40,320 nt of DNA, taken from positions 1-40,320 of IMG/VR virus record IMGVR_UViG_3300004807_001879; one strand, written 5' to 3'. The notes below the pieces were generated by a model. The model did no database searches and was not told the DNA's origin. It saw only the letters and a program-made list of their open reading frames with translations. Shown piece after piece: positions 4,148-37,981 of this stretch (its first letter is position 1; each line of letters begins with the position of its first letter). A program made the position numbers and the translations under genes. This DNA comes from a virus.

Positions 4148-5179
4148 ATGACTTTGAAGAAAATTCCTGTCAGATCAAATCAAATTATCAATTACCTAGG
4201 CATGATCAACGACGGATGGAGGAACAAGTTTTTTCGCGACATTCTCCAAGAACGAGCCCGTGACAAAATTGTATTAGATGTCGGCAGCGGCACTGGAATA
4301 TTGGGTGCTTATGCGCTCGAAGCCGGGGCAAAATTTTTGTATGCCGTAGACAGCAATCCCGAATCGGCACGCATGACCGAATACACACTGGGACAAATCT
4401 TTGATCGGTCTCGATTTAAAGTAATTGCCGGAAACTTTTGGACCAACAAAGTTGATCCGCATATTGATCAAAAGGTAGATATTTTGTTGTCCGAAACAGT
4501 GGGAGCCGGATTATTTGATCAAGGTATGATTCAGACTTGGCAATGTGCAAAGCAATTTCTTGCACCCGATGCTATCAGTATTCCCGATCGACTGCACTGT
4601 GATGTGCACATTTGGGATCACGAAGTTGATTTTGATTATATGTTGAACAATTCAAATCACATGCGAAATCAAAAGTTTCCTTTGTTGGTTCCCAGCGAGT
4701 TATTGTTTCCCAAGTTTGCCGACGCTCTAATCGACTACGAGCAAATACTTTTTCAAGAAAAACAAAAATTAAAAGATGCTCCAATTGATTATACCCAACC
4801 AGTAGAAAACGACTGGAGCAAGGTCAAACTCTACAACGTACCGCCAACTCAAATACTAACCGATGTTATAAACGTAACCAAAGACACACTACCCAAATTA
4901 GAGTTTGACAAGTTGCCCTTCCCAAATAATATTCATCCCGAGATTAAATTCTCTTTGGATTTGCCGCAGGGCCCAAATACAATAGCAATTGTTAACAAGA
5001 TATCTTTTGAAGAACGAACTCTTTTACTCCAAGATGCGTTGTACACTCCTTGGGAATTGAGTGCAACCTTTGTCTGCACCGAACCGGGAACTTATGAATT
5101 CGAACTAGCACCTTTGTTTGTCAAACATACTACGCCCAAGGAATGGGTAACAGTAACTTGGTACTGCAAAAAAATATAA
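4148..5179 (+). CDS. PRMT-like SAM-dependent methyltransferase
   Basis: A 343-residue protein. LDVGSGTGILGAYALEAGA (from residue 43) is the glycine-rich SAM loop and YAVDSNPES supplies the acidic residue for the SAM ribose. LSETVGAGLFDQG (about 114-126) sits where protein arginine methyltransferases carry the first Glu of the double-E loop. A C-terminal beta-rich region follows, as in PRMTs. This suggests N-methylation of a guanidino or related group, with the target unknown. Only one of the two double-E glutamates is evident, so another acceptor is possible. The ATG follows GAGAAGG. It heads a four-gene plus-strand run that ends with PhoH. Confidence 0.72.
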   Translation: MTLKKIPVRSNQIINYLGMINDGWRNKFFRDILQERARDKIVLDVGSGTGILGAYALEAGAKFLYAVDSNPESARMTEYTLGQIFDRSRFKVIAGNFWTNKVDPHIDQKVDILLSETVGAGLFDQGMIQTWQCAKQFLAPDAISIPDRLHCDVHIWDHEVDFDYMLNNSNHMRNQKFPLLVPSELLFPKFADALIDYEQILFQEKQKLKDAPIDYTQPVENDWSKVKLYNVPPTQILTDVINVTKDTLPKLEFDKLPFPNNIHPEIKFSLDLPQGPNTIAIVNKISFEERTLLLQDALYTPWELSATFVCTEPGTYEFELAPLFVKHTTPKEWVTVTWYCKKI

Positions 5180-5182
5180 TAT

Positions 5183-5908
5183 ATGAACACTAAAATTTAC
5201 AACCTAATCAAAGAAAATCTGCAGACAGCATTTAGTCTGCCGAAATATGCCAACATAGTAATAGATGAAACAACTCAAGTGGATGCACTACCCTGGACGC
5301 CTGCACGCTACCGCAAGTTCAAAGATGCGGTTGAATCAGAACTTGGCCTACCCTGTGACTATGTTGGTACCCTACGTAGCATAGTAGATGATTTAAGCGA
5401 ACGCTATATCTTACGCTTTTTTAGCGAGATATGGAAACCTCGAACCAACGACTATGACTATACTGGTTTTCAACTAGTGGACGAAATCAACAGCCAAAAT
5501 CCACAAAACGTACTAGATGTAGGTTGCGGCTACCACCCGTTTAAAGGACGCATAAAAAATCTAGTGGGAATTGATCCCTACAACAACTGTGCCGATTACG
5601 AAGTTGATATATTAGATTACAAAGTAAAGCACAAGTACGATCATATCTTGGCCCTGGGATCAATTAACTTTAACAGTCGAGACGAGATCGAAACACGTTT
5701 TGCACACTGTGTTGATTTGCTGGAAACAGGTGGTAAATTTTATCTACGTGCCAACCCCGGAATTCCACACAAGACCGGACCATACGTGGAAATATTTCCC
5801 TGGACCTTTGAAATAGTAAACGAGTTTGCAGATAAGTATAATTTAAAGTTATTAAAATACAAACAAGATACCAATGACAGGTTATATTTTGTATACGAGA
5901 AATTATGA
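5183..5908 (+). CDS. Class-I SAM-dependent methyltransferase-like protein
   Basis: A 241-residue protein. The first ~105 residues are a separate domain I do not recognise. DVGCGYHPFKG (112-122) is a SAM-binding motif I and GIDPYNNC (about 129) is motif II with its acidic residue. LLETGGKFYLRANPG fits the late strand of a Rossmann-type methyltransferase. It starts 3 nt after the PRMT-like gene and its stop overlaps the next ATG. The next protein shares the GC/DNPFKG and PWTF segments, so the pair are paralogues. Confidence 0.65.
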   Translation: MNTKIYNLIKENLQTAFSLPKYANIVIDETTQVDALPWTPARYRKFKDAVESELGLPCDYVGTLRSIVDDLSERYILRFFSEIWKPRTNDYDYTGFQLVDEINSQNPQNVLDVGCGYHPFKGRIKNLVGIDPYNNCADYEVDILDYKVKHKYDHILALGSINFNSRDEIETRFAHCVDLLETGGKFYLRANPGIPHKTGPYVEIFPWTFEIVNEFADKYNLKLLKYKQDTNDRLYFVYEKL

Positions 5909-10191: not shown

Positions 10192-10593
10192 TTACTCAGT
10201 TTTTGCAGGAGTTTGTTCCATTAAAACTTGTTTTGGTTCTTGTTTTGGTTCTGCTAGTGCCTGGCCCTGTGCTGCTACAAATGCTTGGTTTTCTTTATTA
10301 AGTTTAAAAAACATATTTTCAAATATAGCCAATAGTCCACTTAGCGGGAAAAATACTATTGCAAGAGTTGCAATCAATACAATACCCACAACATGAACAA
10401 ATTTAATATAAATTAAAAATATAATTTCCAATATCAAATTCCAGTACCCGTCAGTTCCGTAACTGTTGATTTGATTCTCAACATCACGTTCTTGATACTG
10501 TCTGTGCGTTTGTATGTGTTGTTTAAAATCTTCGTTTAATGCACTAGCACGTGCATTCAAGATATCAATTAAGCCGCGATATAAATGTAACAT
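10192..10593 (-). CDS. Membrane protein of unknown function
   Basis: Starting at the ATG at 10593 this is 133 residues: an amphipathic N-terminal helix, two adjacent hydrophobic segments around residues 48-83 (LILEIIFLIYIKFV and IVLIATLAIVFFPLSGLLAI), and a Gln/Pro-rich tail ending in QTPAKTE. The frame continues upstream to 10695 but that part is antisense-like filler over the neighbouring basic gene. No family recognised; a holin-like role is only a possibility. Confidence 0.62.
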   Translation of the reverse strand: MLHLYRGLIDILNARASALNEDFKQHIQTHRQYQERDVENQINSYGTDGYWNLILEIIFLIYIKFVHVVGIVLIATLAIVFFPLSGLLAIFENMFFKLNKENQAFVAAQGQALAEPKQEPKQVLMEQTPAKTE

Positions 10594-37095: not shown

Positions 37096-37096
37096 G

Positions 37097-37120
37097 AAAA
37101 ACCCGCCGGAGCGGGTTTTT
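37097..37120 (-). terminator. Rho-independent terminator after the tmRNA coding piece
   Basis: AAAAACCCGC, 4-nt loop, GCGGGTTTTT: a perfect 10-bp stem with A and T flanks, so it can act on both strands. It ends the tmRNA transcript. Confidence 0.88.
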
Positions 37121-37121
37121 T

Positions 37122-37299
37122 GGTGGTTTCTGTTACGAGGTATTTCCTACCCTAGGCCGAGTTTAGGCAGCCAATGCGAACAGTTCGTCGTTTGCAGTTA
37201 CGTTTTTGCTTCTTCGACCGGGTCACCCCAATCCTAACGGGTTCTACATTCCCGAGTTGCCGTCGTTACTATCTAGCCCTGTCGAAACTATGCAGGCCC
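37122..37299 (-). ncRNA. ssrA: tmRNA coding piece
   Basis: It begins GGGCCTGCATAGTTTCGACA, the usual 5' tmRNA start with D-loop-like TTCGAC. It continues to a GC-rich pseudoknot-like region (about 37270-37210), an A-rich run (GAAGCAAAAACGTAACT) before the resume codon, and the tag ORF. After the tag only about 40 nt remain, with a small hairpin (GGGTA/TACCT), so the pseudoknots 2-4 of one-piece tmRNA are missing, as in other two-piece forms. The 3' end is uncertain. Confidence 0.9.
37163..37195 (-). other. tmRNA proteolysis tag reading frame
   Basis: Resume codon GCA at 37195-37193, then a frame encoding ANDELFALAA and TAA at 37165-37163. The ANDE start and LAA end are the classical tmRNA tag, where the end is read by ClpXP. 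Confidence 0.95.
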
Positions 37300-37311
37300 A
37301 TCATAAAAAGA

Positions 37312-37767
37312 TTAACTTGGCTTTCCTAAATATCTTGATGCATCAATGTTCTTTGCTAATCCAGTTTTGACAAACTGAATATATCCTGTTGGATCATAAA
37401 CATTACCCTGTTTATCCTGTAACCAATAGTGCGGTATCTTTTTCCATTCCTCACTATACTCTGGGTCACTTTTGATAAACTGTTTTCTTGCAGTTGGATC
37501 ATTAAAATCCAAACCTTGTTTAATAAACTCACGCTTCATTTCTTTTGTGAAGTCTGCTTTGTCATAAACAACGTTGTCTGCCAAAAAATAACCACCGTAT
37601 CTCTGTAATTCTAAACCTTTTTCTTTGGCCCAATCCATCATGTGAAGTGCGGCAGGCCCGCAATTATCTCTAATAGAATAGTATCTTAATTCTTTAGGAG
37701 ATATACTCTGTAGGAATTCAGGTACCAAATCATTAGTAGATTCGGTTAATATTTCATTTATACGCAT
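37312..37767 (-). CDS. Papain-like protease-type protein encoded inside the tmRNA intervening segment
   Basis: A 151-residue protein. It begins MRINEILTES, like MKISEIIAEI of the 25501 late protein. NCGPAALHMMDWAKEKG (about 34-50) with Cys35 at a helix start and HYWLQDKQGNVYDPTGY (about 112-128) with His112 and Asp125 match the Cys-His-Asp layout of papain/transglutaminase-like enzymes. The substrate is unknown. It is neither a LAGLIDADG nor an HNH protein. The ATG is 4 nt after an ATAAATA late box; AAGGAG is 16 nt upstream. The stop lies 12 nt before the coding piece and the start 23 nt after the acceptor CCA. Confidence 0.8.
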   Translation of the reverse strand: MRINEILTESTNDLVPEFLQSISPKELRYYSIRDNCGPAALHMMDWAKEKGLELQRYGGYFLADNVVYDKADFTKEMKREFIKQGLDFNDPTARKQFIKSDPEYSEEWKKIPHYWLQDKQGNVYDPTGYIQFVKTGLAKNIDASRYLGKPS

Positions 37768-37771
37768 CTAA

Positions 37772-37778
37772 TATTTAT
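37772..37778 (-). promoter_or_regulatory. Late box inside the tmRNA intervening segment
   Basis: Minus-strand ATAAATA, 4 nt, ATG 37767. A transcript from here would contain the ORF and coding piece but not the acceptor piece. Confidence 0.45.
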
Positions 37779-37790
37779 TCAATCTCCTTA

Positions 37791-37854
37791 TGGTGGACCT
37801 GGGGGGATTCGCACCCCCGTCCAAGACTCCTTCGCTCGGAAGGGATTACAACCA
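37791..37854 (-). ncRNA. ssrA: tmRNA acceptor piece
   Basis: From the 3' end: CCA (37793-37791), A73, CAGGTCC, then T-arm GGGGG/TGCGAAT/CCCCC (37818-37802), then AGTCTT (37828-37823) able to pair with AGGGCT of the coding piece as P2, and a hairpin CCTTC-CGAGC-GAAGG (37843-37829). The T-loop has G where most tRNAs have T/pseudouridine 55. A TGGTT (37854-37850) could pair with AACCA near the end of the coding piece (37128-37124), a weak second joining helix. Confidence 0.92.
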
Positions 37855-37858
37855 TTCT

Positions 37859-37981
37859 TTAAAAGTTGTCACGCCACAACTTTTCTAATTCGGGATCTTC
37901 ACGAGCTGGATCATGAAGTACGAGGCCTATCACACTTGTTACAAACCACAGTACTCCAAAAATCCAACCATATTGTGCCAT
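37859..37981 (-). CDS. 40-residue membrane protein upstream of the tmRNA acceptor piece
   Basis: MAQYGWIFGVLWFVTSVIG begins a single membrane helix, followed by an acidic tail (HDPAREDPELEKLWRDNF). The ATG lies 4 nt after an ATAAATA late box that overlaps the upstream stop. The TAA is 5 nt from the tmRNA acceptor piece, so both may be on one transcript. Confidence 0.6.
   Translation of the reverse strand: MAQYGWIFGVLWFVTSVIGLVLHDPAREDPELEKLWRDNF

Follow-up and report, generated by a model that had tools for sequence, protein, structure and literature searches.

Two-piece tmRNA genes of uncultivated, mostly giant phages probably use the intervening sequence (IVS) between their halves as a slot in which protein genes are exchanged, as comparison of related viral sequences indicates. 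One such gene lies in the window, the whole stretch of 40,320 nucleotides analysed here (IMG/VR virus record IMGVR_UViG_3300004807_001879, positions 1 to 40,320). Positions 37853-37122 on its minus strand match the Rfam model RF04321 from end to end (model positions 1-213, 97 bits, E 8.7e-18, gathering score 47), and the gene is confirmed as a circularly permuted tmRNA; ARAGORN makes no call here, the excessive length of the IVS being the probable reason. An earlier note, made from the letters alone, had placed the acceptor half ahead of the coding half on the minus strand, joined GGGCCTG and CAGGTCC in a 7-bp stem with G3-U70, A73 and an encoded CCA, read the tag as ANDELFALAA, and seen in the 491-nt segment between the halves a single 151-codon gene with 23 and 12 nt to spare. 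All of this is found again in the parts listed below. Its P2 pairing (AGGGCT with AGTCTT) also holds, with 7 bp rather than the 6 proposed.

37859..37981, minus strand: ORF of 40 aa lying directly upstream of the acceptor half; ATAAATA (37992-37986) precedes its ATG by 11 nt
37791..37853, minus strand: tmRNA acceptor half, transcribed first and matching the first half of RF04321; contains the 5' part of P2, the T arm (37818-37802, loop TGCGAAT), CAGGTCC, A73 and the encoded CCA
37801-37795, minus strand: acceptor 3' strand CAGGTCC, pairing with GGGCCTG at 37299-37293, including G3-U70
37794-37791, minus strand: A73-CCA, encoded
37281-37275 with 37828-37822, minus strand: P2, CAGGGCT with AGTCTTG, 7 bp between the halves
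37300..37790, minus strand: IVS, the proposed gene slot, 491 nt (23 + 456 + 12)
37780..37790, minus strand: 5' strand of the IVS-closing helix, TAAGGAGATTG, holding a Shine-Dalgarno-like AAGGAG; 11 of 11 positions pair with 37314-37304
37772..37778, minus strand: ATAAATA, candidate T4-like late promoter, 11 nt before the ORF start, a leaderless-type position
37312..37767, minus strand: slot ORF of 151 aa (MRINEILTES...), dN/dS about 0.09
37304..37314, minus strand: 3' strand of the IVS-closing helix, TAATCTTTTTA, including the ORF stop TAA and followed by TGAT opposite ACCA
37122..37299, minus strand: tmRNA coding half, matched by RF04321 to 37163, its 3' end set by inference before the terminator; contains GGGCCTG, the D-loop CATAGTT, the 3' part of P2, the pseudoknot region, the tag and the 3' part
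37163..37195, minus strand: tag reading frame ANDELFALAA with its stop, a degron with an ALAA-type end; relatives have tags of the ANDxxFALAA type
37096..37120, minus strand: intrinsic terminator, AAAAACCCGCTCCGGCGGGTTTTTC, predicted from sequence
37095-37088, minus strand: TATAAATA motif between the terminator and the next gene

The 40-aa ORF and its ATAAATA may possibly mark the start of the transcript; homology of this ORF to a slot ORF of locus L192 is not significant.

For a structural test the two halves of related viral tmRNAs were joined, giving 118 distinct composites. All 118 have a paired acceptor stem and G3-U70, P2 is paired in 107-118 of them with many types of compensatory change, and the T stem covaries as well. 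Pairing of the halves by chance is ruled out by the RF04321 match together with this covariation, and the relatives show conserved pairing and no pattern of unpaired remnants, a possibility that the earlier note had raised. The tag reading frame is present in 125 of 150 viral tmRNAs by a strict pattern. The window T loop (37813-37807) reads TGCGAAT in place of TTCGAAT, that is, U55 is a G. In the same set of 150, all 81 sequences with G55 have a D loop (37292-37286 in the window) without GG and with AG instead, and all 69 with U55 have GG, the two changes being linked without exception. This reads as a covarying tertiary contact that went from G18-U55 to A18-G55, and the linked change argues for a folded, functional RNA. 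No SmpB gene was detected in 19 virus records, so the SmpB of the host is assumed to serve the phage tmRNA.

The 150 distinct viral permuted tmRNAs were collected with DNA patterns for either half, and their IVSs measure 25-494 nt. An IVS was counted as ORF-filled when one ORF starts no more than 26 nt from the CCA and stops in the last 20 nt. This is the case for 60 of the 73 IVSs of at least 130 nt, where shuffles that keep the ends lead one to expect 0.8. Two of the patterns contain TAAGG and favour cassettes with a Shine-Dalgarno sequence, and the loci found with coding-half patterns only were used as a check; here 22 of 25 long IVSs are ORF-filled. Altogether 48 clusters are formed by the 91 spanning ORFs, of which some of the very shortest probably arose by chance; some other IVSs (L192, L193 and L285) hold two ORFs. 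The encoded proteins are diverse: among them are a thioredoxin (L181, 4e-21), a GNAT acetyltransferase (L211), a Cys-rich protein with CxxCxxCC (L263) and tiny proteins of ~21-26 aa, each resembling one membrane span, and most of the ten largest types tested are without a known family. No homing endonuclease or intron domain was found among these ten slot ORFs, by which an intron or homing endonuclease in the IVS was ruled out. Purifying selection is seen in most ORF clusters with several members. The contigs are metagenomic and any one of them may contain an assembly error; the recurrence of the arrangement argues against this as a general explanation. The gene inside the tmRNA that the earlier note described is real, and it is not a single oddity, since the arrangement recurs with dozens of unrelated genes in related viral tmRNAs.

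The slot ORF of the window itself is under purifying selection. A scan of IMG/VR gave 12 relatives, and the comparison with the one in L003 gives a dN of 0.086 and a dS of 0.97. L003 is an independent virus contig of 108 kb, in which the same gene lies between the same halves (RF04321, 65 bits, 4916-5664), an arrangement identical to that of the window. This conservation and the shuffle counts rule out a spurious ORF. A one-off insertion or a false join in assembly is likewise ruled out, by L003 and the further cassettes. The gene also occurs in other settings. In L004 and L005 the acceptor half before it is decayed, and ~1.3 kb downstream lies an intact tmRNA whose non-coding IVS measures 65 nt; in L006-L008 it is present with no adjacent tmRNA match. 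C36, H113 and D125 are invariant in nine aligned sequences, a set of residues like that of papain-like hydrolases, and the AlphaFold model has a pLDDT of 86.5. The protein is probably, on weak grounds, a papain-like cysteine hydrolase; a Foldseek search of the PDB gave nothing significant (best staphopain, E 0.28), and no Pfam family was found. The beginning of this ORF (window 37767-37733) and the slot ORFs of L155, L198, L211, L273 and L277 have a common N-terminus, M[RKQ]Ix[ED][ILV], and are otherwise unrelated; this may resemble the capsid-targeting sequences of T4. Among named phages no close relative of the window or of L015 was matched, and for L197 and L181 mainly the acceptor half was matched. 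No bacterial donor with an identical coding half was matched in the genome contigs searched.

Exchange of cassettes between tmRNAs is seen in several loci. L285 contains the cassette of L110 and then that of L305 in tandem, joined at TTTCTTTA/TAAGGAAG. L152 and L153 have coding halves that are 99.4% identical, one with a non-coding IVS of 53 nt and the other with an ORF-bearing IVS of 138 nt, and L105 and L177 are a similar pair (coding halves 99.1% identical). Conversely, L201 and L329 have an identical cassette with coding halves that are 81% identical, and the same cassette can be 99-100% identical where the coding halves are only 75-87% identical. In L219 a single coding half is preceded by two acceptor halves (upstream of position 10247), and behind each of these lies an ORF of its own. 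Tandem cassettes, near-identical tmRNAs with a different cassette or none, and identical cassettes in different tmRNAs all point to the IVS as an exchangeable gene slot. Their spread is most simply read as homologous recombination, which would probably run through the conserved tmRNA halves and the shared ends of the IVS.

The ends of the IVS are also paired with each other. The first 11 nt pair with nt 5-15 from the IVS end, and this helix continues the acceptor stem. In IVSs longer than 130 nt it has a mean of 9.7-10 consecutive bp, falling to near zero when one strand is slid by 3, 5, 6 or 7. Compensatory changes are found (e.g. TAAGGAGATTG/TAATCTTTTTA in the window vs TAAGAGGTCTA/TAGACTTTTTA in L263), and non-coding IVSs form the same helix with different letters. 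Swapping the ends among long IVSs still gives 8.2-8.6 bp as compared to 9.7-10, so part of the conservation is shared sequence, and the covariation is clearer across classes than within the long IVSs. In the common class of cassette the leader is only ~8-13 nt long and reads TAAGGAAGTTTA-ATG, the Shine-Dalgarno sequence being the 5' strand of the helix itself. It is found in the helix strand of 31 of 35 ORF-spanning IVSs as against 3 of 32 others (p 2e-11, coding-half set), and those three are all two-ORF cassettes. Folding predicts that the Shine-Dalgarno sequence is unpaired with a probability of 0.03 in the precursor and of 0.59 while the RNA is nascent and the 3' strand still missing. For the excised IVS the value is 0.14; there it would stay mostly paired, which makes translation after excision doubtful.

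The window belongs to a second class, in which the 23-nt leader contains ATAAATA; in the window itself AAGGAG lies ~16 nt from the ATG, probably too far. Six cassettes have this motif in the leader (window, L003, L155, L211, L277 and L358). Around 1903 ORF starts in these loci ATAAATA peaks at 11-12 nt before the start (29 sense vs 1 antisense), which makes leaderless late mRNAs likely, and a second, broad peak lies ~25-37 nt before ORF starts. The 198 nt that precede the acceptor half also contain the motif in 49 of 144 cases, vs 31 of 750 random stretches, with a peak of 24 cases at 70-89 nt from the CCA.

The earlier note had pointed out that excision of the two RNA pieces would have to cut on either side of an active message. 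This concern is real, and the conserved helix at the IVS ends, together with the late-promoter motif before the ATG in the window, suggests how tmRNA and message might be separated. A single transcript would fold through the acceptor stem and the IVS-closing helix, ~20 bp in all. By analogy with bacterial two-piece tmRNA, RNase P would then cut before G1 and a 3' nuclease after the CCA, which would free the acceptor and coding RNAs and release the IVS as a mini-mRNA. For cassettes of the common class the gene would be translated on nascent RNA before the 3' helix strand is made, and folding of the tmRNA would then shut translation down, giving a self-limiting window of expression. Taken by itself this step is slightly more doubtful than an even bet. 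For the second class a leaderless late mRNA of its own is probable, made from the ATAAATA 11 nt before the ATG, and the slot ORF would then not have to share the tmRNA precursor. A broader reading would make this a bifunctional RNA gene, with one transcript as both two-piece tmRNA precursor and mRNA, the closing helix as a timer, the halves as recombination handles and the tmRNA gene as a cassette platform of giant phages; we hold it tentatively, at just under even chances. Were it true, the helix that closes the tmRNA would let the gene between the halves be translated while the RNA is nascent or unfolded, and at no other time. Apart from this reading, one gene is repeatedly shared here by a structural RNA of stable fold and by messages for proteins, so that evolution has apparently found a means of expressing the two from interleaved sequence. 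The tmRNAs that are nearly identical but differ in whether they enclose a gene are a natural test set for two-piece processing and for the reason for the split, and giant phages have a site for small-protein cassettes that annotation has overlooked, as ARAGORN did with the tmRNA of the window.

Other explanations have to be weighed against the exchangeable slot. The halves could be separately transcribed genes with their own promoters that flank a protein gene by chance and assemble in trans, with no common precursor. With an ATAAATA within the IVS, as in the window and five further cassettes, the coding half could indeed be reached without the acceptor half, and the 24 motifs upstream of the CCA fit such a picture as well. 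However, most cassettes are without an internal late motif, closely related tmRNAs have IVSs of only 25-60 nt, and a precise, covarying helix that extends the acceptor stem, whether or not the IVS is coding, is meaningful only in one precursor, which leaves this explanation improbable. Still far less probable is that the tmRNA is a non-functional relic tolerating the insertion of selfish or random genes. Single loci can be read in this way, such as L004, where the copy of the window ORF has only a decayed acceptor half before it and the intact tmRNA is a separate one, or L219 with its two acceptor halves for one coding half. Taken as a group, the viral tmRNAs do not look like relics, given the acceptor stem and G3-U70 in every composite, the covarying P2, the tag frame in most sequences and the linkage of D-loop and T-loop changes in all 81 and all 69.

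A further possibility, compatible with the slot, is that the tmRNA itself controls the slot ORFs. In 32 of the 48 clusters exactly 1 nt lies between the TGA stop and G1 of the coding half; if RNase P cuts there, slight trimming would turn the mRNA into a non-stop message whose product is tagged and degraded, as is the case for ArfA of E. coli. The stop of the window and of 15 other clusters lies 8-13 nt earlier, though, and conservation of the TTTATGAT helix strand may be enough to fix where the TGA stands, so that this kind of control is rather unlikely.

Permuted tmRNAs are known from bacteria (Alphaproteobacteria, Betaproteobacteria and Cyanobacteria; RF01849, RF01850 and RF01851, merged as RF04321), and the window resembles them in half order, G3-U70 acceptor, T arm, P2 and tag. 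Their IVSs are short and, as far as seen, non-coding, while that of the window has a gene; 105 alphaproteobacterial matches span 182-419 nt including the IVS, and the longest IVS inspected contains repeats and no described gene. Permuted tmRNAs of phages had already been described: 53 of 133 phage tmRNA structures have been called two-piece, with phage Melnitz as an example (PMC9004378). What appears to be new is the protein-gene cassettes. The closest cases come from a 2025 tmRNA database paper (PMC11915505). Its tmRNA_intron also has a protein gene inside a tmRNA gene, but in a self-splicing group I intron in the T loop that sometimes carries a homing-endonuclease gene, whereas the slot is a permuted IVS with dozens of proteins and no intron or endonuclease found. 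The permuted tmRNA of GCA-2688965 has a gene in its IVS, called a unique feature, but it is an RNA gene (tRNA-Ala) and not a protein gene, and the longest permuted IVS holds a repetitive element. No protein gene in a permuted IVS appears in the literature searched, including the accessible part of PMC11915505; supplements and subscription papers such as Mao et al. 2009 were outside its scope, so an earlier report is possible.

Ten cultured phages were examined (Xanthomonas X1, Rb1 and XacN1; Stenotrophomonas QDWS359 and DLP_6; Alcaligenes QDWS595; Pseudomonas UF_RH6 and SM1; Acinetobacter BUCT628; Sinorhizobium Phosso). Their tmRNAs are two-piece like that of the window, with TGAT before the acceptor in most and an IVS-closing helix visible by eye, but their IVSs are 26-126 nt long (about 390 in Phosso) as compared to the gene-filled 491 nt of the window. 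None of the ten has an annotated gene in its IVS; the long one of Phosso was considered as a candidate and has inverted repeats instead. As for the uncultivated carriers, many locus-bearing contigs are 100-524 kb long, and Terminase_6N was matched in 15 of 18 virus records tested. The terminase of L388 is nearest to those of Sinorhizobium phage Phosso, Pseudomonas PA5oct-like phages and Agrobacterium Atu_ph07, which are T4-like jumbo phages, and judging from L003 the window would be part of such a genome.

It is worth recording that some cultured phages carry unannotated permuted tmRNAs (PV764938.1, 349596-350198; OQ427096.1, PQ569993.1, AP018399.1 and NC_070849.1), and that the one of XacN1 lies ~1 kb from a GOLLD RNA. 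In L015, ARAGORN finds a tRNA with the anticodon CUA (1932-2007, labelled tRNA-Pyl, possibly a suppressor) close to the slot-bearing tmRNA.
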